The notes below the pieces were generated by a model. That model had not been told where the DNA came from, made no database searches, and saw only the letters and a list, made by a program, of their open reading frames with translations. From assembly GCA_027972325.1 (NCBI GenBank), contig JAPMOS010000124.1, forward strand, positions 58,019-122,018: a DNA stretch of 64,000 nt. Direction: 5' to 3'. How positions within the stretch are numbered: position 1 is the first letter of the stretch; each line of letters starts with the position of its first letter. The position numbers and the translations under genes are program-made. The DNA comes from Paratrimastix pyriformis (Eukaryota > Preaxostyla > Paratrimastigidae). This document shows positions 89 to 64,000 of this stretch, in pieces.

Positions 89-2708
89 CCGCACGGTCCA
101 GCACTTGACCTCATCGGCACCGGCGGTGAAGAAGTGGATGAGCGAGAGGGCATTGTACCCGGTGAGGATGATCTTGGGCAGAATCGAGGTCACCCCGGGA
201 TGCTCGGCCGTGAAGGCTGGAGATGGGGAGGGGGAATGTGGGGGAGGGGGGGATGGAGACGAGGTGTGAGCACAACCCGGGATGCTCGGCCGTGAAGGCT
301 GGAGGATGATGATGGATGGATGAGATTGGACGATCGGATGATTGGATGACGATCGGTGGTGACGATTGGATGCTGTGGTGGAGATATGGGCAGATGGGGG
401 AGGCTGACATGGGATGGTAGCATCTGAGAGGGAGCGGGGTGGTGGCAATGGGAGGGGCAGGCATCTGGGGGGATGTTGGCGGACCGGTGCGGGCCTCAGG
501 GGTCATCGCCTGCCACTCGGTCTCGAAGGGGGCCGAGAAGGGGATCAGCGTCTCCCCGGGGCAGTGCGAATCGACCCACTGCTTGATGGGGGCCAGCCTG
601 CACAGAGGGGGAATGGGGCGGAAGTTGTGAGAAGAATCTTCACTCGGCCCACCACCCCGGGAAACCGGCTCCCCCCTCTCACATTGCTCGAATGTTGTGG
701 CATGGTCCACGGTGTTCTCCAAGAAACCTCCCTCCATATCCATTCCGGACCTCCGGCCCATTGATTCTTATCCATTCGAAAATGATTTGGACTTGTATTG
801 TGAATGCGAACCCAAGTGGAGAAAAAAGGCTGTCGCCAGCACGGGGAGCCCACGAAGGCCCAGGGACCAGAAACCCCCAAGAGCCTCCAGGTATCGCCCC
901 CCATTCGGGCATGCTCTGCCAAGCTAGCGAAGGTCGGGCGACACGAAGTCGAGGCCGCGCTCCTTTAGAAGCCTGGCCGAGCCCAAGCCCGCCCAACAGC
1001 CGGGGTTGCCTCGGGGCGGCACTCGAAAAATTATGGGACACCAAAAAAAAATTCACAGCACGACATTTCTTTTGGCTGCACAGAGGATGATGAGGCGGAC
1101 GGACCAGCGGTTGCGCTTGCGGACGTAGTCGGCCGAGCTCAGGTTGACCAGGAAGACGACGGGCTTGGCCGTGAGCAGGGTGAAGCTGTTCACGAATTCC
1201 ACCTGTCGACATCACCCCCCCCAGTGGGTCACAGCCACCCATCCCAGAACACGCGGATGCGCCGTGAGTGCCGGGGTTGGGGAGGCGGTGCTGTGGCTGT
1301 GGTCCCAACATCGAAAGTGGACGACGAAGGGAAGGAGCCATCAGCTGAATGGATTAAGGTGCGTCCCTCATGGGTAACCATCGGGGCAACCGAGAGAAGT
1401 TGCATCAGCGGCTCCAACCCCAGGGCGAGCAGACCCATGCCCAACCAACACAGGTGGTCACAGCCACCATCATCGCCGTCATCATTGCCACGGTCAGTGC
1501 CACCAACGGCGACACGGCAATCCCGCACACCGACATCGAACACCGCGATCATCGTCATCCAATCATCCAATCATCACCCACATCAACGCAAAAAAGTCAC
1601 ACACAGCGCAGGGAGGCGGGCGGGCGGTGGGGCGGACCTCCTTGGAGTCCCAGTCGCCGAACCGCACGTCGCGGCCCTCCTGGAGCATGGCCAGGCACTT
1701 GTTGATGCACTCCTGTGATGGGGGCGCGTGGGTTTGATGAGGATGGGGTGACGTTGACCATGGGGGGGATAGAGATGGTGGCTGATGGGAGTGGTGGGGT
1801 GGGGTGGGGGGACACAGACGAATTCGGCCTTCTTGGTCTTGTCGTTGGCGCGGTTCAGGAGCCGTTCGAGGGGCTCGCGCTTCTTCTCGAGGACCTCAAT
1901 ATCCTGGGGGTATGGAAGACCGCGCCGGAAAAAAGAAAAATTCAGCAGTGAGGACTTCTGTTCGAGGCGGGAGAACAGAAAACGAACCTTCAGCCGCAGC
2001 TCCTGGGAGACAATGTCCAGATCACGGCAGGGGTCGACGTTGCCCTCGACATGGGTGATCTCCTCATCATCGAAGGACCCTGTCCGTGCGAGAGTGCGGA
2101 AAAGAGGAAATGAGCGAACGTGAACAACGGCGGGATCCCGGAACAACAGACTCACAAGGTGGAAAATGCCATCAACGGCCTGAATGTTGGACAGGAAGGC
2201 ATTGCCGAGACCCTGGCCAGAGGCGGCACCACGAATCAGCCCGGCGATATCAGTGACCTAACCCACCAGAGGAAGAGATGGTCACATAGAGAGATGAATA
2301 CGGAGGCCAGGAAGGTGATAATATATCGACCTGCAGGAAGGCCGGGATGCGGCGCTGAGGCTGGCACTTCTCGCACAGGAATTCCCAACGCTCGTCGGGA
2401 ACCTGGGCACGAGCGGTGGAGGGATCTGAGGGCCGGAGGGGGCGGTGAGTGTGGGGGACAGTAAGAATGATGCGGAACAGACCAATGGTGCAGAAGGGGA
2501 AGTTCTCAGCCCGCACACTGGAGTTGGTCAGGACATTGAAGAAGGTGGACTTGCCAACGTTGGCGAGACCCACAATACCCATGGTCAGATTGTTCGAAGG
2601 GCGGCCAAGAAGAATGTGCTCATGGGCAGGACCCTTGGCTGAGGGCTTCGCGGGGGCGGGATGGGGAGCGGCGGCAGCAGATGCCGGAGCGGATGCAGGG
2701 GCGGACAT
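89..2708 (-). CDS. OLA1: Obg-like ATPase 1 (YchF/OLA1 family), 3' end outside window
   Basis: OLA1 is a cytosolic P-loop ATPase of the Obg/YchF family that binds ribosomes. The start at 2708 opens an Ala/Pro-rich leader, then the G1 loop [17 protein letters not shown] and NFPFCTI. Later exons give [53 protein letters not shown] and the helical stretch up to [15 protein letters not shown]. Nine exons are visible: 2708-2483, 2425-2331, 2257-2152, from 2079, then exons ending near 1890 and 1630, about 1206-1105, 597-485 and 216-89. Phases agree at every junction I checked. Donors are GTCTGT, GTCGAT, GTCTGT, GTTCGT, GTCTGT, GTCCGC, GTCCGT, GTCCGC and GTCTGT. The C-terminal TGS part lies beyond base 1. 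Intron 7 (598-1104) is much longer than the 57-73 nt introns of exons 1-4 and holds an snRNA-promoter-like motif. Identity is certain from conserved motifs; exon borders are inferred by hand. Confidence 0.95.
269..303 (-). repeat. Echo of OLA1 exon 9 acceptor and first bases
   Basis: The acceptor CCAG and the first 20 or so bases of the exon starting at 216 occur a second time here, about 80 bp upstream on the coding strand, with nearly identical sequence. It is one of several partial splice-junction duplications in this window. Confidence 0.7.
822..978 (-). ncRNA. Candidate small RNA gene inside OLA1 intron 7
   Basis: This is a prediction by position only. The start was set 47 bp below the promoter-like element, the spacing seen at the U2 gene. 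The segment ends in a run of six T (A822-A827 on the plus strand), as a Pol III transcript would. Bases near the two ends can pair (GCCAG with CTGGC). I could not match it to U1, U4, U5, U6, SRP, RNase P or U3. It may not be an RNA gene at all. Confidence 0.3.
1025..1052 (-). promoter_or_regulatory. snRNA-promoter-like element in OLA1 intron 7
   Basis: Read on the minus strand this is a T-run, GG, two or three variable bases and then TCCCATAATTTTTC. The same arrangement lies 47 bp upstream of the U2 snRNA gene at 47624-47655. The core resembles the plant snRNA upstream element, which starts RTCCCA. It suggests a small RNA gene starting near 978 on the minus strand. The motif match is seen; the function is inferred. 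Confidence 0.45.
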
Positions 2709-2909
2709 TCTGGTTCCGCAAACTCGAAGCAAGGAACACGACGAGGAGCAAGAAGCTCGCTTCGATTTTTTGAAACCCAGCCGGCACGGTTCAAAAACTG
2801 AACAGACTGACAGCAAATCAAACGGGGATTTTTTTTTTACAAAATCGGCTAAGTTTAATCGCCACGAGCAAGCTGCGCGGACAGAGTTGGAGGGATCCTT
2901 GGATTCTCG

Positions 2910-3822
2910 TCAATGTGGAACTACGGCAAAATAGGAAGATGAGAAGCCCCTGTCGCTTTGGCATCCCGCCCAGACCACTAGGAGTTGCGAGGGCAAGTCG
3001 GTGAGCATCCTCGCGCCATCCTCGGTGATCTCGTTTTTATTCAGCTCCAACTATCGCCATTGAATCAGCCAAAATCACACACCGGATTTGAGACAGACCC
3101 GCTTCAAGGAATTCGGTCCCCGTAGCAGCTCGGCCAACACCTTGGCAGTGCGATCGGTCAGTCCGCATCCATTCAGGCAAAGCTGGGAGGGAGGCACGCA
3201 GGGACAGTTCTGAATCGTCCTCGGAAACCGGGGTGGCCAACAGACCCCGGTGAGTCGGGCCTTGGGGTCTTTGAGCGCCTCCACCAAGCAGATGATCCCG
3301 TTCTCGGTGAACGACCGCCGCGGGTTGGCCAGAATCAGCTGGAAGATGGGAAAGAGACAATGATGATCGTCCCCAACCACCTGCCTTCCTCCTCTCACTG
3401 ACACGCCACACACCCACCACGCCACATGCACACTCGCAGACCCACTCGATGTGGGGGGTGTCCGTCCGCAGATGCGTTGCCAAAAGGCGCAGCCCAGCGT
3501 CCGTCAGCTGCGAGTCACCCAGCGAAATCTGCCACGCACAAACCGAACGTGAGCGGGTGGTGGCGGGAGTGGTGGTGGTGTTGTGTGCGGTCGTGATTGA
3601 TGCGTCGCATGTGTGCCGAGTGTGGCGATTGGGTGGCTGTGCCGCTTGTGTGTGTCGCTTGTGTGTGTCGCGTGTGTGTCGCGTGTGTGTCGCGTGTGTG
3701 CGTGTCGTGTGTGTCGTATGCGTGGTGCGTTTCAAGGACGAGACACGGACCCGAGGGTGGGGGTGGGTGATGGCCTCGAGGACAGGCGGTAGCGTGGCAT
3801 CATCAACCAGAAACCCGTCCAA
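2910..3822 (-). CDS. Leucine-rich-repeat (ribonuclease-inhibitor-like) protein, 5' end uncertain
   Basis: Clear exons are 3822-3751, 3528-3442, 3338-3246, 3182-3099 and 3050-2910 (stop 2912-2910). All join in phase 0, which fits one repeat per exon. Each carries an LRR-like unit: LTDAGLRLLATHL, FTENGIICLVEALKD, LCLNGCGLTDRTAKVLAELL and LELNKNEITEDGARMLTDL. Such RNI-type repeats form a curved protein-binding scaffold; the partner is unknown. Donors are GTCCGT, GTCTGC, GTCTGT and GTCTGT. The intron 3529-3750 is filled with CGTGTGTGT repeats. The first exon or exons are not resolved: an open stretch with ATG at 3914 is possible, but its junction to 3822 does not fit a clean donor. The stop lies about 200 bp upstream of the OLA1 start on the same strand. 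Confidence 0.75.
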
Positions 3823-4029
3823 CTTGTGCTAGTGTGGGTCGTGGAGTGGGTAAGTGGATGAGGCACACACCCGTCAGTCTGGAACGTCTCGCCTCGCGGC
3901 AACGACATCCCCAACCCAGCACATCACGTGCCCGGTAGGCGGACGGACCATTGCAATTTTTGTGCGTTTGACGGCGCGAACCACGGGCAGATCAACCGCA
4001 GTGGCGACGACTACAGGAGTGATCGGAGT

Positions 4030-4090
4030 GTGTGCGCGTGGTGCAAAGGGACTGATCAATCGGGCAGGAAGGTCACTCAAATGCACGCAA
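4030..4090 (+). repeat. Dispersed repeat A, copy 1
   Basis: It shares GTGGTGCAAAGGGACTGATC, a near-match to ATCGGACAGGAAGG and nearby bases with three other places in the window (14100-14175 reverse, 52546-52592, 62258-62332). It is the most diverged copy. It lies antisense to the surrounding minus-strand genes. Confidence 0.55.
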
Positions 4091-4212
4091 ACAAGAATCC
4101 CAAACGATGTTTCACAAAAACATCAAAAAATCGAACCAGTCATCATGCACAGGGAGGCACGCAAATGAGGCAAGGCGGGATGCCTTCGACGGCCAAACAA
4201 ATGAAAAAAATG

Positions 4213-9454
<5,242 letters not shown>

Positions 9455-9554
9455 TGCCGGACGAATCTTCGCAGCCCCGAGGTCATCACCCACGCCTGCA
9501 CATTCGAAAATTTGGGACAAGAGCTGGACATGTTCGTGAAAATGGAATGGCGAT

Positions 9555-12247
9555 TCACTCCAACTCGCACATCTTGTCCGCGACCCAAACGGTCTCGTCA
9601 TGATCCTGGCCCAGCATGGCCACAAAGCACTTGTGCGCACTGGCATAGGAGAGCTTCCCATGGGCAAGGTGATGTTTGATCCGCCTCACCTGGTCGTCCA
9701 CCTCGGCACTGATCTCCTGCTGTCTGGCCAGACTCGGGTCTGCCAGTTCCCGGTTCTGGAGACGCTCGTGGCAGATCTGGGCCAGGGCCATGTGGATCTC
9801 ACCCATCCGGATGAAGACCCCGCCCAGGGATGGGGAATAATACCGCATGCCCCCAGCCCCCGATTCCGCCCGGCTTTCTTCGTCCTCCGCTTTCCCCCCA
9901 CCCACATTCCCCCGGCGAATCCGACCCGATGCGCCCGTCATGAGGACCCGCCGCTCGGCCAGCACCACATCCGTGCAATGGCCGAGCAGTTCAATCAATG
10001 CCTCCTCGTCTGTCCTCGGGGTCTGCCACCCCGAGAGGTAATGGCACCGGTCACGCCACAGCTGTACCGCCGCGGCGTGGAAGGGGTGGAGCAAGTCGCG
10101 CGTGAGCGGGTCATCCAGATTCGCCCCGGGCCGTTCGAGGGCATCGTATTGGCCGAGGTGACATGCAACGTGGCACCGCTTGCAGCGTGGCGGGTCGCCC
10201 AAAAGACGCACTGCGAGGGCCTGCTGCAGTCGGGACCGGGCGGCCAGGCTGGCGGGCAGGCAAGCCAGAGGAGCAGGAAGGGCGGGCAGGGTGGTCGAAG
10301 GAGAGGCGGGTGTGGGCGGGGAAGCGTAGACGAGCTCGCCGCGGCACTGGGGATCGACTGGAACGAGATGAGGGGGGACGTGGCGGGATGTGCATGAGGG
10401 CAGGTGTGAGAGCTCTGGAAAAGGAGACTGATGACGAGGCACGATCCAAATGGGTCTGGGTAATCGATGGGGTGGGGTGGGAGTAAAATCGTTTTGTGAA
10501 AATCCCTCCTTTGAATTTTATCAAGTCGTTCGTGCCTCACACGAGGCTGCACGAACATGAAACTGACCAACGAGTGAAAAACGGGCACAAATGACAGGAC
10601 AGCAGTTGCAGGCGGGGGTGGTGGTCCGGACGGCAGCGATACCCGCGAACGAGGCGATCATCATCGGCCCAATTGGTGCACCGCGGGCACTCGCACAGGA
10701 ACCCATACTGAGACCCCAGGTGCACCTGCCTACAGTGCATGCACACCAGCAATCCAACGCATCAGTGCCGAAACAGCGAGAAAATGAGCGTCATGAAGAG
10801 TGACAGGTCGATCCCGCTTGGTACGATCATCCGTGGTCTCAGTGATGAAGATCATGGATGCTGATTGGGGGACGGACCGGGCCAGGAAGTGGTCATACGG
10901 GTCGATGTACGAGATGGCGCACTCCTCGCCTGCGGAAAACCCACACCGAAAGCGACGGAATGGGTCAACGCGGAAATCTCGATCTGGTTGGGTCGATCTG
11001 GTTGGGTCGAATCTGTTTGTGTCATTCTGTTGTGTCAATGCGTCTCTCTCTGTGTCAATGTACCAATGTGTCAATGTGTCAATGCCAATGAGTCGTTGGT
11101 GTTTGGGTTGGTTGTGAACTGATCACACACGCCATGTATTCTTCCTGCCCAGGCAGCCACTCCAGACCGGGGCAGACAGGAGCGCACACCCGCACACACA
11201 TCCGGCATCCAAGCGGGGCGGCGCGGGCCCCAGGGGTGCCAATTCGGGGATCTCGGACGGGCATGGGCATGGGCATGGGCACGCAGTTCGGCAGGCACGA
11301 GTGGTTGAACAGGGCGGCGTGTGGGAAGAACCCGCGTCCCACTTGGCAGGCCCCTGTGGGTCGGCACAAGAAGAACAGGGGGAACCCAAGATGTGAAAGA
11401 AATCTGGGAGAGCGCGCCCAGAAAAGGTCTTCAATTGAGCGAAGGGTTTTCGGAAGACACACGACCCTCCCAGAGCGTCCATTCACAGGTTCTCGCCAGT
11501 GTTAATGGCCAGACAGACCACTTCGGGGGGGAGCAGACCTCTCGAATCCGGCGTCACCTCGATGCAACTCCTCGAGAGTCGGCACAGGACCTCCACCCAC
11601 CAGCCCTCGCCAGCCCACCGCTCGGCATGAGGCCCCTCGGCACGACCGAGTGGCTCCAACCGGTCGGGTGCGATACCCTCGACCAGCCGGCCCACCTCCC
11701 GTGCCGCTTGTCGGATGGTCTCTGTCCGGGCCTGTTGGTCTTGCTGCGAGGGCATCGCATGAAGTGCCTCGAGAGTTTGGGCGATGGACGGAATGTGTGC
11801 GGCCTGAAGACGCAGCGCAAGATAGCGGATCTAACCCGTGGGAGATGATGTCGCAGATCGGAGGGGATCCGGACAGACCAAAAGGAATGCTTCTTCACGA
11901 ATTGGTCTTGCTACTGCACTCTGTCTGAGACTCTGAAGGAGCTGACACTCGGTTGCCTCGTGGAGCGGTTCGAAGGGGGTGCAATGCTTATAGCAGCAAG
12001 GAAAGAGGTTAATCGAGCAAATAATGCAGCAGACCTCACAAAATGCAGCGGAATTGCATTTTGAGCAGGCGCAATTGTCAACAGGCGCGAAACAGAAGCA
12101 ACAATTCCGCAGACGTCGAGGTTCATTGACAGAACAGAGGAGAGACGATTCGTCTGTCAAAATACGTCCTGGAACAAGGTTCTGTGTAGCGCGATAGAAA
12201 CGCCCCGCGAGAGGATCGGTGCACAGAAGAACAAACTCATCTGACAT
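9555..12247 (-). CDS. SET and MYND domain protein (SMYD-like methyltransferase)
   Basis: SMYD proteins are SAM-dependent lysine methyltransferases whose SET domain is split by a MYND zinc finger. Start ATG 12247. Exons 12247-12035 and 11986-11879 together encode the MYND finger (NCCFCFAPVDNCACSKC, then FCE joined to HCTPFEPLHEATEC). Exon 11830-11519 is helical. A later exon gives GRGFFPHAALFNHSCLPNC, the SET NHSC motif, ending at 11259. The next gives GEECAISYIDPYDHFL, and the next a post-SET cluster QYGFLCECPRC. A long last exon is helical and TPR-like, ending at 9555. Donors are GTCTGC, GTCTGT, GTCTGT, GTCCGA and GTCCGT, with 48-nt introns at the 5' end. The junction between 11519 and the NHSC exon does not resolve in frame and may hide a small exon. 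The start is 68 bp from a divergent secreted-protein gene. Confidence 0.85.
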
Positions 12248-12315
12248 AAAACAAGGGGTACCCAACCTGTGGGGGAATCTCGATCATGTAAAGAAAGAAA
12301 GCACAGCGCTGTGAA

Positions 12316-14477
12316 ATGATGAGGCCGTTGCTGCTGATATCACTCATTTGCGGGGCCTTTGCACTGAGTACGTGCGAAGCCGAATGCCGCAATACTTTGG
12401 AGCGGTGCCTTACGGCCACTTTGGACGCCAAAGATATCCAGCAAGGCCTACAGGACTTCAATCATTGCCTTCAAACGAACGGGGCCTGCTTTTCCCAGTG
12501 TCATGGAGAAAAACCTCCTCGTGGCAACGACCAGTGCGTCGAAAATTGTGCCTCTGCAATGCGGAGTTGCATTCAGAGCGGAGCCCAGGTCTCCCCAGCC
12601 ACCCCCCCGGCCTCTCACAATCTTTCTTCTTTGAAAGAGTTGCATGACCAAGTGCAATGACGATGTGCGCTCACCGTGCATGTTCACCTGTGCCCTCGAC
12701 CTGTTCACCACCTGTGTTGATGCGAACCAGGTCAGTTTGATTTCTCCCTCCAGTTCTGTTCCCGACACGTTGTAGTATTGCAACCGGGGGTGCCGTTTGG
12801 GCACCTCGATGGAGCCCCTCCTCGAACAGTGTTCCGGGCAATGCCGGCCAAACCTCAAGTCATGCCTGCGCGGTGTCGCCAAGGACTGCCTCCGGCCCAA
12901 CTTCTCCCCAGACCAGACCAAGAACTGGTTCGTGCACTTTTGGTCCCGGTCACCGACTTTTTCTTTCTCTCTCCACAGCGCCCTGCATCTCCTGTCCTCG
13001 TGTCTCTCGGACAACGAAGCCTGCTATTCCCAATGCCTGGACAATGCACCGAGCCAGACGGGTAGCCAAGTCGACAAGGCGGACGCATCCCTGACAGGAA
13101 CGTTGCGTTATTTGAAGTGCATCGATCAATTGGTTCGGGGGATCGTCAAAAATTACGCTGCCTGCCAGCTGACCTGCCCCGATTCAGGTGTCTGTAGACC
13201 CCCGCGCACTGTCTCGATTCCTGCTTTTCTCTCTCTATGCAGGGGATCTGCATGCAAACGTGCATGGTCTCCAAGGCCTACGCGCAGGTGAGTCAGTTCC
13301 AGCAGTGTCTGAATCCCCAGGCGGAGGACGAGACTCCGGCGCAGGAGGAAGGGGACGCGGAGGAGCCCGTAGGTGATGAAGCGGGCGCCTTGCTCGATGA
13401 GGGCCTGATGGACGCCCTGTTGGACGGATGGGAGGGTGTACCTCCCCCCGGGTATTGGCCCGAGGAGGAGGAGGAGGAGGAGGAAGAGGAAGAAGGGGAT
13501 GGCGATTACAAGGCTCTGGGAAGCGACGAGGAGGACAACGAGGACGAGACCTTCGTTCCGCTGTCTGTGCAACCCACAGCATCCAATCCTCATCTCCAAC
13601 CATCCAACCATCCAATCATCATCCATCATCCATCATCCATCCCATCATCCACCATCATCCAGTCATCCTCACCATCCAAGCATCATCGCAGTCGCTCCTT
13701 TGTGGGGAGTGTGCTGCTTGTTCATGTCAGCAGTGTCTCATTCGCCCCGGTCCCATCCCCCCCGCCCGCCTCTTCCGACAGGTCAGTGAACAGCTTCTTC
13801 ATGCCCTATACTAAGGTCTGCTCTCGCAACCCCCATCCGCCACCCCTCATCTTCCCCATTCAACCACCACCACCCTGGGGGACACCCCTCATGTCCCCTG
13901 TTCACCACCCATCACTCATCCCATCTCCGGGGGGACAGTACACCAGGCCCCCATCGTGTCCCCGTTCGTCCGAATCGCTCACTCACCCCCCCATCGCCCA
14001 CCGCCACCAGTCCCCACCCTCAATCCCATTTTTTTGGCCCTTATGTCCCATGTCAGCGCTCATCCACCATCCACCAACCACCAACCACCAACCACCACGG
14101 CCAAGTTCGCTCAAGCTGTGGGTCATTTGAGACCCTTCCTGTCCGATTGCAGCCCCTTTGCTCCACACACACAACCAACGCCACCCAACAGTACACCCCC
14201 CCATCCATACCCACCGCCTCATGCCCTTTTATCATCCATCACCCACCCACCCACCCACCCACCCACCCACCCACCCACCACCACCACCACCCATCCCCAT
14301 CACCCACCCACCCACCAGTACACCCGGCCGCCCTCGTTCAGCTTCCCGGCCAACTTCCGCTCGATCGCCGGGGCCAACGTGAAGTACACATACAACCAGC
14401 CCCCCATCTACACCGCCCCCGTCTACCCCAAGCGCAACGCCCAGCTGCGCCCATACATGTTGGGCACGGGCCAGTAA
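12316..14477 (+). CDS. Secreted cysteine-rich repeat protein with acidic region
   Basis: It begins MMRPLLLISLICGAFALS, a typical signal peptide, so the product should enter the secretory pathway. The mature part has repeated CxxxC units: CEAEC, CFSQC, CVENC, CMTKC, CMFTC, CSGQC, CYSQC, CQLTC and CMQTC. An uninterrupted Glu run follows (about 13465-13500), then acidic sequence. The last exon starts after the acceptor near 14315 (YTRPPSFSFPANF) and ends RPYMLGTGQ at 14477. Probable donors include GTCTCC after codon 92, GTCAGT and GTTCGT. The introns between 13590 and 14315 are CATC- and CCCA-rich, and CAGTACACC appears three times (13937, 14188, 14315). I do not recognise the family. It may be a surface or extracellular protein. 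Middle exon borders are uncertain. Confidence 0.7.
14100..14175 (-). repeat. Dispersed repeat A, copy 2
   Basis: The reverse complement reads GTGGAGCAAAGGGGCTG, then ATCGGACAGGAAGGGTCTC, then CAGCTTGAGCGAACTTGG. It matches the copy at 62258-62332 along its length. It sits in an intron of the plus-strand secreted-protein gene, antisense to it. Confidence 0.8.
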
Positions 14478-14603
14478 AATGACATCTTCCTCGTAAATAC
14501 ACTGTCCTGCGAGGAGACTCGTGTGTTGCCGGCAAGCCAGTGGGGCAGTTGAACAGCAGCGAGTCCTCAGGCCACGCTCTTCCCCGCCTCCACACCACAA
14601 GGT

Positions 14604-14813
14604 TTGCTGACTTGGTCAACCCAGGGGGAGGCCTTTGCGGCCTCGGTGAAAGCCACCTCCTGGGAGACGAGTGCCCTCACGGGTCAGGGCGTCCAAGAGT
14701 GCTTCGCAGGCACGCGAGAGCTGCCATCACATCGCACCGATCGCGGAAGGACGACCCTTTCCGACTATGCCTGGCCCCTTCCTCCGCCACGCCCGAGGTG
14801 CATGATTGCGTGA
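14604..14813 (+). pseudogene. Orphan Rab/Ras-family GTPase fragment (G5 region)
   Basis: The reading frame contains GEAFAASVKATSWETSALTG followed by QGVQECF. This is the end of a Rab-type GTPase: the helix before G5, the G5 motif ETSA, and helix alpha-5. There is no GKS/T loop, DTAGQE or NKxD in the preceding 130 bp after the secreted-protein stop. The frame continues into unrelated sequence without a prenylation CC end. It is most likely a relic or displaced exon; it could be the last coding exon of a gene I failed to see. Confidence 0.55.
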
Positions 14814-15067
14814 TGAGCATGCGCCTTCACAGAAACCAAACCCTATTTCCATATTTGCTCTTGTGACTCGGCTGGGGTTTTTTTCTTTGTGGCGAACAAT
14901 AACAATCCATTTTGTGGCATCTCCTCAGACGCAAGCGCCCCAATCCCCTCTTCTCGTTCGTCCCAGTTCCGGCAATGACCTTTGATGATGATAACGTGTT
15001 GGCCCGGGAAATAGGAACAACAATTGCCAATAACCGCGGCAGCCACAAGTGCGCGCTGGTTCTCTCG

Positions 15068-17511: not shown

Positions 17512-18307
17512 AAGTTCCTTTTTTTTTTGTCATCGTGTGCACGTTTTCAATCCCTGTCCCCCCCCCCCCCCCCCCCCCCCGCCGATGAGCGGAAGTGAAC
17601 GTCAATGGACTGGGAGGACGAGATGACCGGGCGAACGGGATTCAGCGACGGAGGGACGGGGATCTACTCGGGGTCATGCCGACTACTCGGTCTCGAAGGG
17701 CGCGGACTGAGCTGAGAGTGGGCTGCATCCGTTGATGTGGCACCAAAGGATCGCCGTGTCTCTGGCACGAAGCATGTCTCTCTGGCACCCCAAAGGCGTG
17801 GGCTCCTGGGAAACCTTGCCGATCGTTGTGGTGTCACGCCGAAGGGTCCGGCGCGCCCATCGCAAAACCAGAGGGACAGCACTAACATGCAGACCGTTTC
17901 TTCATCCCTTTTTCCCACCATTTATCGCGTCCAGTGCTGCTGGAAAGGGAGGGGCGCGTGATCAAAATGCTTGAGAATCGATGGCAGGCGTCGGGAAAAT
18001 GGGAGGAAAAAGCCTTGCCTCCGCGATGCTGTGACAAGACTAGGGCACTGACTGACCCAGATCGATCCGGAGTAAAAACCTTTCGCTCCACTAGGGGAAG
18101 TCTTGTTCCCTGATCGGTTGCGAGTGTCCCACGCCTGCGATCGTGTATCGGAAAAGTGGTAGCACAGCGGCATGTGCAAAACCCAAAAAACAGTTGCTGT
18201 GAACTCTTCTCGATTGCGATTCTCGTGAGCCACCTACGAGGCTGCATTACGAGACTGACTGACTGGATCCGATGCCGGTTGGAGTGGACGGCGCGCTGGT
18301 TCTCTCG
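17512..18307. other. Intergenic stretch with a poly-C run
   Basis: After the pseudogene there is a T-run, then a C-run of nearly 30 bases (about 17552-17580). I see no coding family and no RNA gene up to the shared leader of the next F-box/LRR gene. The 30 bp before that leader's ATG (GCGCGCTGGTTCTCTCG and on) also occur before the first copy at 15050-15067, so promoter sequence was duplicated with the gene. Confidence 0.6.
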
Positions 18308-20718: not shown

Positions 20719-20944
20719 GGTTCATTTCAACGTGTGGTTGGTCCGCTGCTGGGTGGGATTCCGTGTTGGCACTGCTCGGAACGCCCGGTAGTTGACCCAA
20801 TGTTGGACCGTCTCTCTTCCTTCCTTCTTTCCCTGTCCTGTCTTCTGGCGCCCGTCCCCGCCCCCGTCACGTCCCGTTTGTGGTCGATGTCCAACGACAT
20901 TTTCTTCTTTTTTCCGATTTTTCTGGTCCATTCGACGACCGAGT

Positions 20945-21536
20945 TTAGCAGGTGCCGGTCTTCAGTGTGGTGCGCGAGGCGGTGCACGCGGTCTTCTTTG
21001 GGGTGGCGGTCTTGACACACCGGGCATTCTTCGAGGTCTCTGCGCAGGCTCCAGACTTGGCCTTGGCTCCCTCGCACTGATCCCGACGGCCAACTTGGGA
21101 ACCTATTTTGCGCAGTGATGAATGGCCGGGGGGTGCCAGACGGACCTTGCCGATCTGCGTCGGTAAACTCGTCACCGACTTCAGCCTGGGCGTCCCACTT
21201 GTCCTCGGAGTTCTCTTCGTTCTCCTTCACACGCTTGCGGGAAGCGTCAATAGAGGTGGAAGTGGTGCTAACTTCAGCGCCCTTCATGTCGAAGCAATCA
21301 CCCATTGATCCTGTCGACAAAGTAACCGATTCGAGCGGAATGGCCAGCAGACCAAATGAGTCCCAATTTTCATCTGTCGTATCGCATCCCCAGACGCCTC
21401 CATTCACGAAACCGGTGTCCTCGCCTTTGCATTTCTGGCTGCTTGTTTCGCCATGGCAAGTTTCCTTGTTGCACGCGGACTTTTGCTTGAGGGCGAATGC
21501 GAGCCCAACAAGGAGGACGGCAACAACGGCCTTCAT
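20945..21536 (-). CDS. Small secreted cysteine-containing protein, 182 aa
   Basis: Start MKAVVAVLLVGLAFA is a clean signal peptide. Exon 1 is 21536-21146, a 43-nt intron runs 21145-21103 (donor GTCCGT, acceptor AATAG), and exon 2 is 21102-20945; the sum is 183 codons with stop. Cysteines are spaced through both exons (SACNKETC, SQKCKG, WGCDTT, GDCFDM; then DQCEG, GACAE, ARCVKT, TACTAS, GTC-stop). Without splicing the frame runs on as low-quality basic sequence, and the spliced frame keeps the Cys pattern, which supports the intron. Family not recognised. Confidence 0.7.
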
Positions 21537-21765
21537 TTCTTCGACGGCGCTCGACTGTCGCTTTTACAGTGATGACAGCGATGGATGTACGGCCCCAGGC
21601 GGTTCAACCATTTCGCAGGCAGCCAGTCTCAAGACTTAAAAAGCTCCCTGTTCCCCATTCATTGCCTCAAAAATCGCCATTGTCTTGAAAGAGCCAGGAT
21701 CACCATTCGGCGGCCAGTGATCACTCGATGAGATTGTTATTATTCGATGAAAAGAGTATATCAAT

Positions 21766-22606
21766 TTACAGGTTCGCGAGGAACTTGCGCCAATCGGCGA
21801 GGGACCACTCGTCCGAACAATCGTCGCATGGAACGCCATTCACCCAAAACGTGGGCGTTCCGAAGCAGCCATGGGAGACCGCAAACTTCCACGAGACACG
21901 GGTATCCCAGTTCGTGGTGCTGTTGTTCATCTGGGGTGGAAACAGGGCGGGTGAAGGAAAAAACAGAAACAAGTCGTCCCTGAGTGATGCCGGTGGTGTG
22001 TGCATGATGAGCAGCCGTCTCCCAAACAGTTGATTTTGGTTGGTGTCTTGGTGTTCGGGTGCGTGGTCGAGTGGATCGGCGTGGAGTGGGGTGGGGGTAG
22101 GCTTCCGCCCAGACCTGGCCAATGAAGTCATCGTGAGGCACACCCATCTTCCCAGCAAACCCGGCGAAGAGCTCAAGCACCTCGGGGTATGCCCTGCGAT
22201 GCGGATTCAACCCGGGGAATGGAACGGAAAAACAGGTTGGTCTCACATCACAAGAGTGAAACGATGGTCAAGCACAGACATGGAAGCTGTTGCCGTGTCG
22301 GACCACTGGTTCTGAGACTTGAACAGGTAATCCATCATCGGGACTGGGGAAGGGGAAAAAAGGTTGTAATGGATTCGTGTCCCCGTGGCAGCACAGACAA
22401 AATTGCCCTGGCCGCACACGGTCCACACCAAGAGCGGCCTGAGAAGCCAGGAAGGAGGAGCGGTGATACGGGAGGGGCAGGAGATGGGCCACCATCGTGG
22501 TCGACGCATCGGCCAGCTGCCGCATCACGGGCCAGACTTGAGCAGAGTCCGGACATTGGGGGTCCACAAAAACATCCACCTGAACTGGGGCCGCAGCAGA
22601 GCCCAT
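21766..22606 (-). CDS. DsbA-like thioredoxin-fold protein, 171 aa
   Basis: Exons are 22606-22399, 22343-22280, 22193-22115 and 21930-21766. Joining them keeps frame (208+64+79+165 nt). The N-terminal strand gives VDVFVDPQCPDSAQVWPVM, where DsbA-type oxidoreductases carry CxxC. The helical insert gives LLPLPYHRSSFLASQAAL and FFPMMDYLFKSQNQWSD. The C-terminal part has GTPTFWVNGVPCDDC, the cis-Pro loop of this fold. The active site reads PQCPDS, one cysteine only, so redox activity would differ from DsbA. Donors are GTCTGT, GTCTGT and GTCTGG; introns are 55, 86 and 184 nt. No signal peptide, so probably cytosolic. The start is 185 bp from the divergent GCP3-like gene. An in-frame upstream ATG (22660) is possible. 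Confidence 0.8.
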
Positions 22607-22791
22607 TCTAAACAGGAGTGACGTGTCACTAAAGAAGTGGCACTGACCGATATCCGTCATAATGCTTGGGAATTGGAGCACCCGCGAAAACTGGAACCAA
22701 GAGGCAAATGCATGCCCAACCAAGCAGCCGCATTTTTGGACTCGAGAAAATTCGATCTGAATCACCAACCGGGTGAAGTTAACTGTCCGAG

Positions 22792-34167
<11,376 letters not shown>

Positions 34168-34351: not shown

Positions 34352-38235
<3,884 letters not shown>

Positions 38236-42839: not shown

Positions 42840-43054
42840 TGAGGACCCAAGAGAAGGGCTCGGCCGGCGCTTCGACTGGTTTGAAAAGCTTCGCGAAACT
42901 GTTGCAGCAACCCCGGTACTTACAATCATCCGACGGACGACGTCGGGCGTCCCGTGTGGCCTCTTGTTCAAGGCACCCACCCCCTAAAACATGGGGCTTC
43001 CGCCATTCGCTCTACTTCTTCTCCACGGGCATTCTCTTCGGTTATTTGAGCTGA

Positions 43055-45299: not shown

Positions 45300-45333
<34 letters not shown>

Positions 45334-48300
45334 CTCATCACTCATCATCATCATCATCATCATCCAATCATCATCATCATCCAATCATCATCATCATCAT
45401 CATCCAATCATCATCATCCAATCATCATCATCCAATCATCATCATCATCATCATCCAATCATCATCACCCAGTCATCCCGATCATCCCGATCTCCAGATC
45501 ATCAGTCATCCCCCATCAACAGCATCGCCGCCAGCAGCAGGATTCATGACGATTCACGCGCATGATTCGGACCTGCGGGGGCAGCGAGAGTCATGTTGAC
45601 TGGGGTGTACTCGACCAGGATCTGCATGGCCGGCCGGGGGGCCTGAAGTGGGTACGCCCTGGAGGGGAGCGCGGCGGCGGGAGAGGAGGGGATGAGAGGT
45701 GTTAAGTCGGTCCGACCACGAAATGGGGTGCGGGGATGCGGGGATGCTGATCGACCAAGAGTGCACGAACAATCCATGAAGGAGGGTGGAAGGTGAGGAG
45801 GGGCGATGGATGGAAGGAGAGGGATGAGGGCGGGGAGGGCAGGGCACGGACTGGAAGCCGCGAGCGCGGAACTCGAAGGCGAACTGGAGCGGCAGGCACT
45901 GAGTGGGCCGCAGGAGGACCGCCCTGCAGGGGGAAGGTGGTGGCGGGGGGCGGGAAAGGTGGAGGCATGGAGATGGGGACAGATGAGTGACGGCCTGTCA
46001 CGTGTTTCTCGCCCCCCACCCGCACATTCGACACTGACACCACGCAGATATCGACATTTCGTCGACACGCACACACAGACATGGACACTAACCCTATCGA
46101 CACGCACATGGACACACACCTCGACATTTCGACACGCCATCCAGTCCGTTCGCCTGCCGCCATGCCCCCCCCCCCCCCCCCCCCATCCCTGTCCGCACCC
46201 CCTTTTGCCCGCCATTGCCCTTGGGATGTCCGGGGCGCTCACAGGGTGTCGTGGGGGCGGCGACCAGGAACCCCTCGATGCCGCTGTACTCGCCGCGGAG
46301 CATGATGACCCATCGCCACAGTACCAGAGCATATTTTATGGAGTAATATGTTAAAAAAAGAGGATAAATATTATCATAAAGAAATGTCTATGCTAATGGA
46401 ACTTTATTTCTCTGTCGATAATGATATTCAAATGACAATTGATTATGAAAAATCAGATGGAACTAAAATGTCTTTAATTTTAGATAAAGATACACCTATT
46501 CTAGATGATGTAGAATTTGGCGATAAGGTTTTACAATCTATGGACATTTTAGATAAAATTAGTAAAATTACAGAAATTACTAAAGATATGACTACAGTTG
46601 AAAAAAACGGTGTGCCTGAGCTCCACACACACACGTGGGCACACGGCCAATCCACGCCGTCACACGGCCACACCCGCCCTCAACCACAAAACGCAAAGTG
46701 TGTGCACGTATCAAGGCCGCGATTCGTTTTGATTGTATGAACCAGAGCAACAATGAGCAGGGGCGGGCCGCCAGACGGACGTGTAGAGGCCGGGCTCACC
46801 CGAGGGGTGTCTGTGGAGGCCCGAGTAGCGCAGGCCCAGCGGCTCGGCGTGCCATTGGGGGCTCGTCCGCACCCGAATCAGGCAGCGTCGCATGGCGGGC
46901 AGGGTCAGCTCACCGAGCCTGGGGGTGGGGTGGGACGGCGGCAGAGGGTCAGGGGAGGGGTGCGATGGAGGGAATGGCGGGCAAAGGGAGGTCAGTGGGT
47001 GGGCGGACGGGGAGGACGGAGGGGTGGTGGGGGGGACGGACAGGGTGGGCGCGAGCGAGGGCAGGGCGGCCGGGCTGGGGAAGTGCTGCACCAGGCCCCT
47101 GCGTGACAAAAAAAACGGAACGGGTTGGGTGATCTGGGCACGTCTGAAGAATGAAAAAGCACTTCCCTACCACCTGCCCTTCTGGGGCCTTGGGAGACTT
47201 GACCCACCTTTTCCGTGCCCCTTATGACTCGGTCCACTTGCTTGTACAAATTGTTTCTCCTCAACCACAATCGCAGCACCCTACCCCGAAGCAGTGGGAC
47301 ATCAGAAACAGGCTCTGTCCATGCACGTTCACCTTCAGGTGGAGCTCCCACTGCGCTCATCTGAAGTTCAGGAACCGAATTGAATGGTGGGCCACGCTCG
47401 GCGGCAGTGCAGTGCCGAGGCGACCCGTGCCCGCAGCTCTGGCAAGCCAGATGGCGCTGCGTGCCCGTGCCAAATATTGGATTAATAACGATGGGGGCAC
47501 ATGGCCCCCAATTCAGTTATTAAGCTGAATAGAACAGATACTACACTTGATCTTAGCCACGTAGGCCGAGAAGGTATGCATGTGAAAAATTCGGTGTGCC
47601 TTCTTGAACTCCACCATCCAACAGAAAAATTATGGGACGGCCAAAAAAAAAAATATCAACAGACCCCGTCCATTGGGCAAGGACCCGCACGGCCCCTAGG
47701 GCCGACGGATCCCGGCCGCCGCTGTCCGCCAGCGGGTCGACATCGTCACCCGAGGGAGCGGGGCCCGTAGTGGCCGTGGCGCCTGCCCCAGCAGCAGGCC
47801 CGAGGCCGGACATCAACGGCTGCAGCCAGGTGGGCCCCAGCACGACCAGGTCACAGCACAGGGCCGCCGCGGTGAGGGAATTCGCCTGCCAGGGGCGGGT
47901 GGGTTGATGGGGGTTGATGAGGAGGATGGAATGGTCACGGGATGACATGAGAGGGAGAAATGGGGGGGAACGAGGACAGCCGGCGCGGGGGGGGGGGGGC
48001 AGCACCCTGGCGTGAGCCACCACAACCCCGGTGATAGCCACCACAACCCCGGTGATAGCCACCACAACCCTGGTGTGAAAGCTGCCACAACCCTGGTGTG
48101 ATAGCCGCCACAACCCTGGTGTGATAGCCGCCACAACCCTGGTGTGATAGCCGCCACAACCCTGGTGTGATAGCCGCCACAACCCTGGTGTGAAAGCCAC
48201 CACAACCCTGGTGATAGCCCCGCCGATGCAATCCTCTCGCACACTCACATGGGGTGTGTCTGGGGGTGGCACGCAGACCTCAGCCTGCCAGCCGAGGCGC

Positions 48301-50308
48301 TGCGGGGGCGTCGCCAGTACCATCACCACCCGGGCTGCACGGACGGGGGCGGGGCGGGAAGAAGGGCGGTGATGCCGATTGAGGGAAACTGGATGGGTTC
48401 GGCGGGTGATTGATCAGGGGGGGGGGGGGGGGGGGGGGCTGGGGGAACGGGAACGGAACGGGGATGTGTGATGGCGTGCGAACGGACCGAGATGTGAGGC
48501 CGACAAGGGGGTGAAGGCACCAGCCAGCACCTGGCAGGCTGTGTGTGTGTGTGGGGGTCGAAAACGCGGTTTGTGGCCAAACCAGATGCACAGCGCGTGC
48601 AGGGGCGGAAAAACGCGAAGGTCGACCATCCACACCCCCAAATACAAACGCGCTGCACACTGTGGCCACAGGGGGGGCGATGCACGGGGGCTCGGAGATG
48701 AGGGGGGTGAGGGAAGGGTTGTGGTTGTTGTGGTTGTGGTGGTGATGGTAAGGCGAGATGGAAGTGGCGGCGGTCAGGGGAGTGAATGGAGGGAGGGGTG
48801 GACTGATACTGAGGTCGGGTGGTGGCGGTCAGGGGGTGGTCAGAGGGTGGCAGTGGTGGTGGTGGTGGCCCAAGTGGTGGAAGGGGGGATGGATGGAGGA
48901 AGGAACGGACCGAGGCTGAGGTCGGGTGGGCCCGCAGTGCGCAGGGATCCGAGCGCCTCAACCACACGCAGCATCGCCCGCTCGCCCGGCTGTGCTCGGG
49001 GGGGGGGGGGTGTGATGGGCGATGGATGGAGGCGGGGTGAGGGGGGAGGGAGGCAGAGGGATGGATGGGGGTGTGTGGGTGGGTGTCGGGACCTGGGTGG
49101 CGATGAGTGCGCTCAGGGGCACGAGGCTGTCCAGGGCTGACGGGTGCGAGCCCACCAGGAACCGGATGGCCGGCTTGCGCGCCTGGGGATGGTGAGAGGG
49201 AGGAGGTGAGGGAGAAGGATGGGGGTGGGGGTGGGTGAGGAGTCAACTGGGCGAGGAGTGCAGGGGCTCGGGGCTCGAATGGGGGGTGATGGATGCGGGT
49301 GTGGCGGTGTGCAAACTGAAGGGATGGACGTGGGCGGATGCAGGGCTTGAAGGAGCGACGGGAGGGCTGACGCGCCCGCCAGCAGGCCAGGCCAGTCCAG
49401 CGGAGGCCTGCCCATGGGGACGGGATGGGTCAATGGGGGGGGGGGGGGGGGGGAAGGGACGCGATTGATGATGAAGCCCAAGGAGGAGCAACCAAACCCC
49501 AACACAACACACAAAGAGATCGGATGTCGACAACAAGAAAGGCGCACCACCTTTGACGGTTTGGGGCAAAGGATGCCAAAAGCAGGGGCGGAGTGGAGAG
49601 GGATCAAGTCTGGCAGTCAAAAAGAGACGCACCGCTGATGGTTTGGGTGAGGGCGAGCTTCAGCGGTTCCAGCCACTCGGGGGCAAAGCCACAATCGACC
49701 GCGAAAAGGGTCACCGGTTGGGTGGCGGCGGCTGGAGCCGGGGTTCCGGGACGAGGCGCCTCCTTTTCGGGTGAAGCGAGGGCTACAAAAGAATTGGATG
49801 GGATGGCACAGGCAATGGAGACTGCACACGGACGGGGGGGTGCCGGAATGAGGCAATCGAGCACAGGACTGTTTAGTTCGAGCGCACCTGCGCGCTGGTC
49901 GGCGGTGGAATACTGGGGAGGTAGGGGGGTCTCTTGGTGGCAGAAGGGGCACATAAACTTGTGGTTGCCGGGGAAGGCGAGTGATGGGTTGGCCAGCCCG
50001 AGGCATTTCTGGCAGTGGGGGATACTTGAGAGAGTGGGACATGGTTTGGAGAAATCAGGAGGTTCCGGGAATGGTTGAACGAGACAACCCCATGGGAAAG
50101 CGGCTTTTGCCAAGACAGAGGCTGATCGGGAAAAACGAGTTTGTGCGGAAACTGGAATCAGCTGAACAGACGATCCTTCGGGAAGTGTTCGAGGGAAAAG
50201 GACACCAGGGAAGTCATGTTCTGTCGAACGCCACCCCGAGAAAGCTTTTGTTCCGGCCGGAAATAGTCTCTGTCCGTTTGGCGTGGGCGATCGCACTTTT
50301 CTTTCCAT
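43055..50308 (-). CDS. Sec24-like COPII coat protein
   Basis: Sec24 binds cargo in the inner COPII coat on ER exit sites. Near the N-terminus are FPRTLPEGSSVQ, then WGCLVQPFPEPPDFSKP and the zinc finger CQKCLGLANPSLAF plus MCPFCHQETPLPPQY. A trunk start follows, TLFAVDCGFAPEWLEPLKLA. Later exons give IRFLVGSHPSALDSLVPLSA, RAMLRVVEALGSL, beta-sandwich IQLVEYTP-like MQILVEYTPVNMTLAAP, helical GLLQAARLDAALGLWAWR and LIARYHEVR, ALVPAIHCALHHPLM, YLDAPTILRTLRPALSGW, gelsolin-like MPLSMMSVLCGGHLYYLLDG and ELFESRLLEDIPPVLAFLRG. The end is SFKASLTESIKKEIRLG (stop 43057-43055). Donors are GTCTGT, GTCCGT, GTCGGT and others. The U2 snRNA gene lies in the intron 47099-47664. An AT-rich segment sits at the edge of one exon (46331). 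The Sec24 call rests on motif order; Sec23 is less likely. Confidence 0.65.
43865..44165. repeat. 14-bp minisatellite GATGGCGATTGGGT
   Basis: About 21 copies, with GGGCGATGATGGCGATT variants at regular spacing (43990, 44060, 44140), which shows higher-order amplification. Intron of the Sec24-like gene. Confidence 0.95.
44642..44835 (-). repeat. Three copies of exon end plus donor
   Basis: On the minus strand, GCCCGCTATCACGAGGTCCG (exon end ARYHEV with donor GTCCGT) occurs at about 44835, 44753 and 44672, a period of about 82 bp. Only the highest-coordinate copy follows the coding exon. The copies are separated by ATCATT microsatellite text. Confidence 0.85.
45060..45540. repeat. ATC/CCAATCATC microsatellite
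   Basis: About 480 bp of ATC units with CCGATC and CCAATC variants in an intron of the Sec24-like gene. Confidence 0.93.
46331..46610 (+). other. AT-rich foreign-looking segment with a short ORF
   Basis: From about 46331 the composition switches abruptly from GC-rich to strongly AT-rich and back at about 46607. A plus-strand frame from 46348 starts MLKKEDKYYHKEMSML and continues VEFGDKVLQSMDIL to VEKN. Codons end mostly in A or T, unlike every other gene here. It then runs out into host CACACA text with no stop of its own, so it is a fragment. No family recognised. A possible 4-bp GAGC occurs at both edges. The lower edge abuts coding text of the Sec24-like gene (LWRWVIMLRGEYSG) with no AG acceptor visible, so it may interrupt that gene. 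Transfer, insertion or a chimeric assembly join are all possible. Confidence 0.7.
47415..47577 (-). ncRNA. U2 spliceosomal snRNA gene
   Basis: On the minus strand the RNA starts ATACCTTCTCGGCC and continues GTGGCTAAGATCAAGTGTAG and TATCTGTTC, almost identical to U2 from other eukaryotes. GUAGUA, the branch-site pairing sequence, is intact. Stem IIa (TTCAG/CTGAA) and stem IIb (GGGGGC/GCCCCC) can form. An Sm-like site AATATTTGG lies at about 47473-47481, followed by a hairpin with GCAGC/GCTGC arms. The 3' end is approximate. It lies on the same strand in a 566-nt intron (47099-47664) of the Sec24-like gene, with its own upstream element. U2 pairs with intron branch points in the spliceosome. 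Confidence 0.93.
47624..47655 (-). promoter_or_regulatory. Upstream promoter element of U2 snRNA
   Basis: On the minus strand it reads a T-run, GGCCG and TCCCATAATTTTTC. Its 3' edge is 47 bp above the U2 start, where a PSE or USE would be. The only other copy I see is in OLA1 intron 7 (1025-1052). The TCCCA core recalls the plant USE. It begins about 10 bp inside the host intron. Confidence 0.6.
48000..48230. repeat. 24-bp minisatellite
   Basis: About nine copies of GTGATAGCC(G/A)CCACAACCCT with GTGTGAAAG variants, in an intron of the Sec24-like gene. Confidence 0.93.
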
Positions 50309-51367
50309 GTCAGCCCAACCCTCCCCGTCCCCAGCGCCTGCTCCATCCGGCACGTTTGTGTTCCCATTTGACAAGGCTCGGAGCGACGTCCAGCATGTTT
50401 TTGAAGTGAGCAATATGCCTTTTGATGGTGAATGGTCTCCAAATCGAGCGGTGCCCCACTTTCACCTCTCATTAGGAAGCTCCTGAAAGAAAATGAACAA
50501 TGTCGGGTATATTCACGCGACATTCCGGATGGCACTGGCCTTCCTGAGTTCCGTGGTGTGGGTGATATTGATGGCATTTCCCCTTGGGAGCTGGGCCTTG
50601 TGATGCGCGATTATGCATTTCGCCGGAACTGGGATAACACCACCCTTCAGCAGGGTATGGTCGGCTTGAATGCCTGGATTTTTGTGGATCAGTATTTTTT
50701 TTATTATTTTTTCAGCTGGCCAACCCCGAGCCTGACTTCTGGCTCTCGTACAACCTTTCGGCACCCAGTCTCGGCGGGATGATCAGCGCTCGGGATTTTA
50801 CGGACTTCCAATTCGCTCGCGCCGATTCGGATGGCGGTCTGGTCGCCGACGTCGACATCATCCTTGGTACATCCTCCTCGCTCGCTCATAGGTTACACCC
50901 ACGGAGGATCCGCCTGCGATTTTCCTGAAGTTCCTCCGTTGAAGGTCTGCCAATGGTATGATGACATCGACACACCCGTCGCCTCCTTCTCCCCAGGGCA
51001 TCGTGCGCGGTAATAACTCCAGCTGCGGCGTTCGGATGCAGCCCATCCCGGGGGCCCCTGACAAAGTGCGCCTGCACTACGTGATCCGGTCGGACCTGCG
51101 GGGGAGCTTACCCCGGTGGGTGGTCAACAAGGCCATGGGCGGCGTGATCGCCGACTTCTACGCCAAGTTGCAGCTGAACCTGCCCAAGGTCCGCCCCGGC
51201 CACTCTTACCGCGCTCGTGCTCACCACATTGCCCTATATCTCCTCCCTCGCAGCGGGACCGGAGCAGGTATCCCCCTCGCCCCGAGGCCCCCGGCCAGGC
51301 GAGCCATCCTGGGTTCCAGATCCCCCGTCTCGATGGGACCCCCGGGGTGGTGGCGCCTCGCGGATGA
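50307..51367 (+). CDS. START-domain lipid-binding protein, 273 aa
   Basis: START domains bind a single lipid or sterol in a helix-grip pocket. Exons 50307-50434, 50476-50659, 50716-50866, 50892-50944, 50997-51188 and 51254-51367 sum to 274 codons with correct phases. Motifs: FEVSNMPFDGEWKLLKENEQ (across intron 1), VYSRDIPDGTGLPEFRG, MRDYAFRRNWDNT, then GIVRGNNSSCGVRMQPIPG, VRLHYVIRSDLRGSLPRWVV and NKAMGGVIADFYAKL, the C-terminal START helix. A 35-residue Pro/Arg tail follows. Donors are GTCTCC, GTCGGC, GTACAT, GTCTGC and GTCCGC. Introns are 41, 56, 25, 52 and 65 nt; the 25-nt intron is needed to keep the frame and is unusually short. It is cytosolic, with no membrane segment. Its ATG shares a CATG with the opposite ATG of the Sec24-like gene. 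Confidence 0.88.
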
Positions 51368-51379
51368 GGCGAACAATGA

Positions 51380-52340
51380 TGACTCAGATTTTCCTTGAGA
51401 AGGAGACGCAAAAGAAAAAAACAAACAAAAAAAGAGCAAAAAGGGAGAGAACAAAAAGGGGAGAGAACAAAAAGGGGGAGAGAACAAAAAGGGGGGGAAA
51501 GAACAAAAAGGGGGGGAGAGAACAAAAGGAGAGAACAAAAAGGGCGGGGGGGGGGGAACAAAAAGGGGAATCGGAAAGACGCGAAACATCAGGGGGAAGG
51601 GAGAAGCAAAAATTGAGACCACGAGAACACGGAGAAAACAGCAGCCTCGTGAGGAGGAAGGGGAAGGGATGAAAGCAAAACGCTGAGCAGAGCAAGCCCC
51701 AGAGAAGAGCCAGCACACCGGGTCGACAAAAGCAGACGTCACTTGGAGAGACGAGACGCTCAACGGATGCAAGCATTCGTGGTGAGGGGGGCGGGGGGGG
51801 GGGGGGGGGGGGCGGGGGTGAGAAAGAGAATCAAAGAGAGAATTTGTCAAAATTCTCACACAAAGGACGACGAATCGAATCATTTGGAATCATTGACATT
51901 CGTGCCGAGAACAACAGTCTCGCTGGGAAGGAAGCTTGGGCCGGGGGCGAGGGACAGGGGGACAGGGGGACGGGTGGCGGGTGGGTGGCGGGTGGGTGGG
52001 TGGGTGGCGAGAGGCGAAGAAGGAGGACGCTGAGGAAAAAATGAGACAGATGCATAAATACGAAACCACAGGGGCATCACGCTATTTTATTCAACCCGAA
52101 ACAAAGGAGATCATCAGAAACGGAAGAGGGGAGACGCACGCACGCACGCACGTCCAAGCACACACAGACACTGACACCCACACGGAAAACAATCAGAGGA
52201 ACCCAACCAGGTCACAGCAGCCCACAGCACGAAAAATGGTCAAACCAGGAAGATAGAAGCAACGGGAAAAGAGGACCGTAGGAGGGGATTGGGTGCAGAT
52301 GAGCGCATTATGCCAACAATTGGGGGTCCGGAACAGGCGC
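51380..52340. other. Intergenic, low complexity
   Basis: A purine-rich minisatellite of AGAGAACAAAAAGGGGG units (51420-51560), a poly-G run (51787-51812) and a GGGTGGCGGGT run (51965-52010) lie between the START gene and the stop of the TmcB-like gene. No gene or RNA recognised. Confidence 0.7.

Positions 52341-64000
<11,660 letters not shown>

Follow-up and report, generated by a model that had tools for sequence, protein, structure and literature searches.

Do the introns of Paratrimastix pyriformis begin with the usual GTAAGT or GTGAGT and, if they do not, what in the spliceosome reads them? The question arises from the window considered here, the whole stretch of 64,000 nucleotides of contig JAPMOS010000124.1 that was analysed, in which the initial annotation had read the donors of all genes as GTC(C/T/G)G rather than GTRAGT, with C at +3 and G at +5 nearly fixed, and had proposed that U1 or another factor should have co-evolved.

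Donor sites of homology-fixed introns and of the window

Junctions were fixed by spliced protein-to-DNA alignment in a donor-neutral manner, with every GT..AG pair weighted alike, in eight CCT chaperonin genes found outside the window via Pfam PF00118 and in OLA1, which lies within it. Close relatives with solved structures served as the homologues, OLA1 was aligned as two pieces, making 10 alignments in all, and none of the 41 introns obtained was dropped from the counts. GTCYG begins 38 of these introns, GTC 40 and GTRAG none, against 8.0% GTCYG and 2.5% GTRAG among the 1283 GTs of the same loci (binomial p about 1e-38). The base at +3 is C in 40 introns and T in one, and that at +5 is G in 39, with one C and one T, so that the near fixation of both positions holds as first described; +4 is divided between T (20) and C (20) with a single G, +6 is T in 19, C in 18, G in 3 and A in 1, and G precedes the junction at -1 in 36. 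The three donors outside GTCYG are GTCCCT, GTCGTT (weakly supported) and a GTTCGT that the spliced alignment places in OLA1, at window position 1987, in line with the expectation that exceptions such as this exist. All acceptors are YAG (C in 32, T in 9), and the intron borders can be summarised as G/GTCYG..YAG, the slash marking the junction. Enrichment of a TACTAAC-like branch site is weak; 17 of the 41 introns reach five of the seven positions and none more, compared with about 8 at five and 1.4 above in shuffled sequence.

The choice of these junctions was then loosened or constrained. Freeing the donor dinucleotide while requiring the acceptor AG leaves 38 of the 41 junctions in place at their GT, and the three that shift move to TC, CT and CG; freeing donors and acceptors together adds 0 to 16 to the alignment scores. 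When only GTRAG donors are allowed, the score equals that of the alignment with no intron in 9 of 10 cases, and when only GTCYG donors are allowed, the full score is kept in 7 of 10. A GTRAGT a few bases away, the observation named beforehand as speaking against the unusual donors, was looked for on these alignments rather than on spliced reads, and one intron of the 41 has a GTRAG no more than 30 nt from its junction. The introns thus start with GTC(C/T)G in place of GTAAGT or GTGAGT, which confirms the donor observation.

One might still ask whether GTCYG simply reflects base composition or a preference for C-ending codons (GTC CGC encodes Val-Arg), picked out by eye and reinforced by a gene finder that learns from its own output, while the real donors are ordinary. 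The sequence does lean this way: the window is GC-rich, at 0.54-0.65 per 4 kb, as is a 200-kb stretch also analysed (0.64), the introns called by the gene finder described next are C-rich around the donor, and 35% of all GTs in the tested loci are GTC. However, the excess over the 8.0% background was obtained with no donor preference applied, the alignments restricted to GTRAG collapse as described, and the change in U1 reported below matches independently. We give a compositional artefact next to no weight, and it is rejected by the donor-neutral spliced alignment.

A second view of the donors came from a two-strand HMM gene finder which required only GT..AG and trained itself on 264 kb for both coding statistics and signals; the analysis as a whole drew on the window, the 200-kb stretch and smaller loci of the assembly (56.06 Mb, 495 contigs). 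Leaving out genes that scored below 15 gave 479 introns, and 282 remained once those flanked by an exon of score 8 or less were set aside too. From a neutral start, these 282 show C at +3 in 0.89, G at +5 in 0.79, a pyrimidine at +4 in 0.82 and a pyrimidine at +6 in 0.86, C being commoner than T at +4 (0.61 and 0.21); starts from canonical AG/GTRAGT, from GTATGT, from GTCYGY or from two decoys led to the same GTCYGY donor, making six starts with the neutral one. Taken alone, the window yields 46 introns with C at +3 in 0.76 and G at +5 in 0.72, and one GTGAGT among them. The HMM set is only partly clean, with G at -1 in 0.59 as against 36 of 41 for the homology-fixed introns, and false introns occur in it, simple repeats being abundant in the sequence. 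Long repeats of the GATGATTGGATG type occur in the window, for example at 4334-7604, 28377-29376 and 52341-58830; they translate as stretches rich in His, Ile, Ser and Pro and mislead gene finding.

Within the window, OLA1 is the sole gene that was aligned to a homologue (5ee0_A), and eight of the listed donors rest on the homology considered in the initial annotation (Table 1). Of the 12 donor coordinates given there, 10 fall exactly on a GTCYG site, and the other two are displaced, 33003 by one base and 54640 by seven, the latter marking the far end of its site. The HMM models agree with four of the 12 (2482, 1104, 51189 and 54647), leave six uncovered and disagree at two (26593 and near 33004).

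Table 1. Donor sites and the U2 snRNA gene in the window, with the basis of each assignment
Feature	Positions	Strand	Basis
5' splice site GTCTGT, OLA1	2477..2482	-	Spliced alignment to 5ee0_A, loss 33 if banned; HMM agrees
5' splice site GTTCGT (+3 exception), OLA1	1982..1987	-	Spliced alignment, loss 42 if banned
5' splice site GTCTGT, OLA1	1814..1819	-	Spliced alignment, weakly fixed, loss 3
5' splice site GTCCGC, OLA1	1632..1637	-	Spliced alignment, loss 51
5' splice site GTCCGT, OLA1	1099..1104	-	Spliced alignment, loss 23; HMM agrees
Putative donor GTCTGT, LRR gene	3093..3098	-	Sequence present; outside HMM models
Putative donor GTCTGT, SET/MYND gene	11513..11518	-	Sequence present; outside HMM models
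Putative donor GTCTGC, SET/MYND gene	12029..12034	-	Sequence present; outside HMM models
Putative donor GTCCGT, secreted gene	21140..21145	-	Sequence present; outside HMM models
Putative donor GTCTGT, DsbA-like gene	22393..22398	-	Sequence present; outside HMM models
Putative donor GTCCGC, GCP3	26593..26598	+	Sequence present; HMM disagrees and opens an exon here
Putative donor GTCCGC, GCP3	33004..33009	+	Sequence present one base past 33003; HMM model on the opposite strand
Putative donor GTCTGC, START gene	50945..50950	+	Sequence present; outside HMM models
Donor GTCCGC, START gene	51189..51194	+	Sequence present; HMM has the same donor
Donor GTCCGT, TmcB-like gene	54642..54647	-	Sequence; HMM has the same donor, exon ends at 54648
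U2 snRNA gene, branch-site stretch GUAGUA	47382..47577	-	Rfam RF00004, 160 bits; GTCCCATAA upstream at -61

The U1 genes and their predicted pairing with the donors

A search of the assembly with the Rfam model of U1 (RF00003), in which 41 of 992 candidates were scored, found eight full-length U1 genes on eight contigs, all matching positions 1-166 of the model (E 4e-13 to 2e-10) with 50.8-60.2 bits, scores below the gathering cut-off of 69.5. All eight start AUACAGACCUUG (over longer extents AUACAGACC, ACAGACCU and AUACAGACCUUGCUUGGCCAG), where the usual start is AUACUUACCUG, and the usual 5' end (ACUUACCU, also written AUACUUACC) is absent from every one of them; positions 5-6, normally UU, read AG in 8/8. 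The frame of the molecule is kept in the cmscan alignment, with the first stem-loop and its GAUCA loop, the AUAC..ACC 5' end, an Sm-like site AAUGUUUGG (AUAAUGUUUGG) and the final hairpin. In the predicted fold of one copy (L004, 1501-1656), the 5' end CAGAC (4-8) could pair with GUUUG of the Sm-like site (118-122). U1-C was not located; in the sole zf-U1 match a WW-domain-like stretch comes next, an arrangement known from WBP4, and the protein looks WBP4-like rather than like U1-C.

The prediction that U1 would have changed so as to be complementary to GUCYG, a 'GAC-type' end, is thus borne out by all eight genes reading AUACAGACC. U1 bases C8-A7-G6-A5-C4 would pair with G+1 U+2 C+3 U+4 G+5 of the donor, and the replacement of UU by AG matches C+3 and U+4 exactly. 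Averaged over the 41 donors, the U1 end found here gives a duplex energy of -8.99 kcal/mol and 7.10 Watson-Crick pairs of 11, compared with -3.76 kcal/mol and 5.46 pairs for the usual end. Among the 16 dinucleotides that could be placed at positions 5-6, AG is second best; GG does better (-11.47), given that C occupies +4 in half of the donors. The prediction needs one refinement, for a U at +4 pairs with U1 and a C does not, even though the two are equally frequent in the homology set. A C at +4 faces A in both U1 and U6, and we see no clear difference in compensation elsewhere in the donor, where the remaining pairs number 6.50 with C against 6.75 with T (homology set) and 5.73 against 6.02 (HMM set). 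As for the suggestion that another factor might have adapted, none is needed for +3 and +5, and one may matter for +4.

Could the genome hold two U1 populations, a usual one and a variant that serves a subset of the introns? Variant U1 genes are described for S. specki and for human in the reports considered below, and human variant U1 snRNAs coexist with the usual U1. The HMM set of the window includes donors of other kinds, +3 being C in 0.76 of 46 introns with the one GTGAGT, but this set includes false introns. A standard U1 end, whose presence would have spoken against a change in U1, was searched for directly: the usual 11-base end ATACTTACCTG has no match on either strand of the 56-Mb assembly. 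Its reversed pattern has 57, and the complete absence is striking beside that number, with the reversal serving as a rough expectation only. A query with the body of U1, from which the first 12 bases had been excluded, returned the same eight genes and a 32-base stub ending in a run of N. A usual U1 might still lie in unassembled sequence, one U1 copy being this stub beside an assembly gap. With no usual end found and none of the 41 introns beginning GTRAG, we regard two coexisting populations as very improbable.

The other spliceosomal RNAs

Standard motifs are found in the partners of U1, namely the ACAGAGA box of U6 (GAUACAGAGAAGAUUAGCAUGG) in all four copies found, loop 1 of U5 (GCCUUUUAC) in all seven, and GUAGUA in the single U2 gene seen. 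U1 and U6 share the stretch AUACAGA, which in U1 forms the first heptamer. ACAGA of U6 is complementary to UCUGU, and forms five Watson-Crick pairs with GTCTGT and three with GTAAGT. An upstream element, TCCCATAA, is located near -60 of all eight U1 genes, of U2, of six of the seven U5 genes and of a U12 candidate, and near -68 of three of the four U6 genes and of U6atac, the remaining U5 and U6 copies carrying one-base variants of it; the comparison covered loci L001-L019, L050 and L053 and window positions 47577-47677. A TATA-like box is present as well, near -30, in two of the U6 copies and in U6atac. The shared element resembles the upstream sequence element of plants. Since they share TCCCATAA, the snRNA loci look like true genes. 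The genome also has a METTL16-like gene (PF05971), whose best solved homologue is a U6 A43 methyltransferase (E 8e-30), and a match to SNRNP27.

The match of U6 to the donors raises the alternative that U1 plays a minor role, that the ACAGAGA box, together with U1-C-like proteins, mainly selects the donors, and that these drifted to full U6 complementarity while U1 changed passively. The five pairs with GTCTGT fit this well. Splicing occurs in Cyanidioschyzon and Entamoeba, which are reported to lack a recognised U1; the two nucleomorph U1 RNAs described keep the usual motif, and the Bigelowiella nucleomorph does so with introns that have no donor motif beyond GU. Against it, the eight intact U1 genes, their shared upstream element and their invariant 5' end argue that U1 is used, and the G at -1 in 36 of the 41 introns can pair with C9 of U1 and not with the U6 box, with the reservation that loop 1 of U5 could read this G too. 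We consider a passive U1 unlikely, if a good deal less so than the other alternatives weighed here.

A minor spliceosome seems present, since a U12 candidate (44.9 bits, below the cut-off; L053 1501-1675, G000:C432:103343-103517) carries UAAUGAGUAAGGAAAAUA as well as the shared upstream element. The U6atac gene scores 46.6 bits, above the cut-off (L050 173-305, G000:C445:22122-22254), and has its own upstream element; its donor-binding stretch, normally AAAGGAGAGAAGG, reads AGCCGAGAGAAGG, predicting minor donors of the form RTATCGGCT. In 352 kb searched on both strands there are 14 RTATCGGC and six RTATCCTT, none tied to a junction. For U11, no Rfam match was obtained among the 39 candidates scored of 1576, which is no proof of its absence.

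Might the introns then be of the U12 type, or of a third class, rather than U2-type? These two minor RNAs would be the argument for it. However, RTATCC-like donors number 0 of 41. The requirement for GT..AG kept AT-AC introns out of that alignment, but freeing the donors displaced three junctions to the dinucleotides given earlier, none of them AT; the acceptors are YAG, and the donors fit both U1 and U6. This reading has hardly any probability left in our estimate, and the minor spliceosome is rejected as the cause of the unusual donors, none of which fits it.

A probable rewired donor code and its relation to known systems

We conclude that the major (U2-type) spliceosome of this organism very likely uses a rewired 5' splice site code, in which AG at U1 positions 5-6 pairs with the donors before they are handed to U6. 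Judged from sequence, the U1 genes are probably expressed, the pairing probably selects the sites, and U1 and the donors probably changed together. The free 5' end of U1, AUACAGACCUU, would pair with (A)AG/GUCUGU instead of CAG/GURAGU, and a donor AAG/GUCYGU bound by U1 would then be passed to the unchanged ACAGAGA box of U6, also complementary to UCUGU, so that one donor could pair with both RNAs. A plausible route would be a drift of the donors towards a complete match to the U6 box, after which two substitutions brought U1 into line. An A-C wobble or inosine might account for the equal acceptance of U and C at +4 and +6, where C faces A in both RNAs. As a tentative extension, which we hold to be possible though less probable than not, U1 may have converged on U6 over AUACAGA, such that the donors are read twice by the same sequence, first in U1 and then in U6, with the A facing +4 and +6 taking U or C through A-C wobble or A-to-I editing; perhaps the minor spliceosome was rewired too, its altered U6atac reading RUAUCGGCU donors.

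Much of the ordinary system is retained, including the GAUCA loop, the Sm-like site and the last stem-loop of an RF00003-type U1, GT..YAG introns and the standard motifs of U2, U5 and U6; what differs is AG for UU at U1 5-6 and GTCYGY for GTRAGT in the donors. U1 is known to carry pseudouridine at position 6. Pseudouridine at position 5 has been reported in human and yeast (PMC10581693), and both modifications would be lost here. The same study (Parker et al. 2023, PMC10581693) describes a +4 switch in Saccharomycotina, with ACUUACC of U1 and ACAGA of U6 invariant and the switch linked to METTL16 and SNRNP27K; ACUUACC is given there as invariant wherever U1 was found (227/230 Saccharomycotina and 9/10 outgroups), and a change of U1 position 5 to A is named as a hypothetical compensation only. 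The two cases have in common a lineage-wide shift in donor preference away from A at +4, but U1 itself has changed here. The yeast-type route through loss of METTL16 or SNRNP27K does not simply fit this genome, because a METTL16-like gene and an SNRNP27 match are present.

Other departures from the usual donor or from the usual U1 differ in what accompanies them. In the diplonemid S. specki, a usual U1 coexists with an alternative U1 gene whose 5' end is altered and bears a C stretch, and the two are reported to have comparable complementarity to the canonical donor logo (PMC12621601). In Fritillaria borealis, most introns likewise depart from the usual ends, but the U1 5' end is strictly preserved, and the change is attributed to U2AF paralogues and m6A patterns (PMC13326754). 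Several human U1 genes also differ from the usual one (PMC13172311, PMC5159530), whereas no usual U1 was found here. The nonconventional introns of euglenids are defined by having no conserved borders (PMC6221363), unlike the conserved ones of this genome. We found no comparable genome-wide, co-evolved change of U1 among the matches listed in the open-access literature, and one may have been reported elsewhere.

If true, the change would amount to the classic compensatory-mutation experiment performed by nature on the introns of a whole genome. It makes testable how a spliceosome changes its donor code, whether complementarity to U6 sets the direction of such a change, and what reads position +4. 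In practical terms, gene prediction based on GTRAGT donors would probably annotate this genome wrongly.
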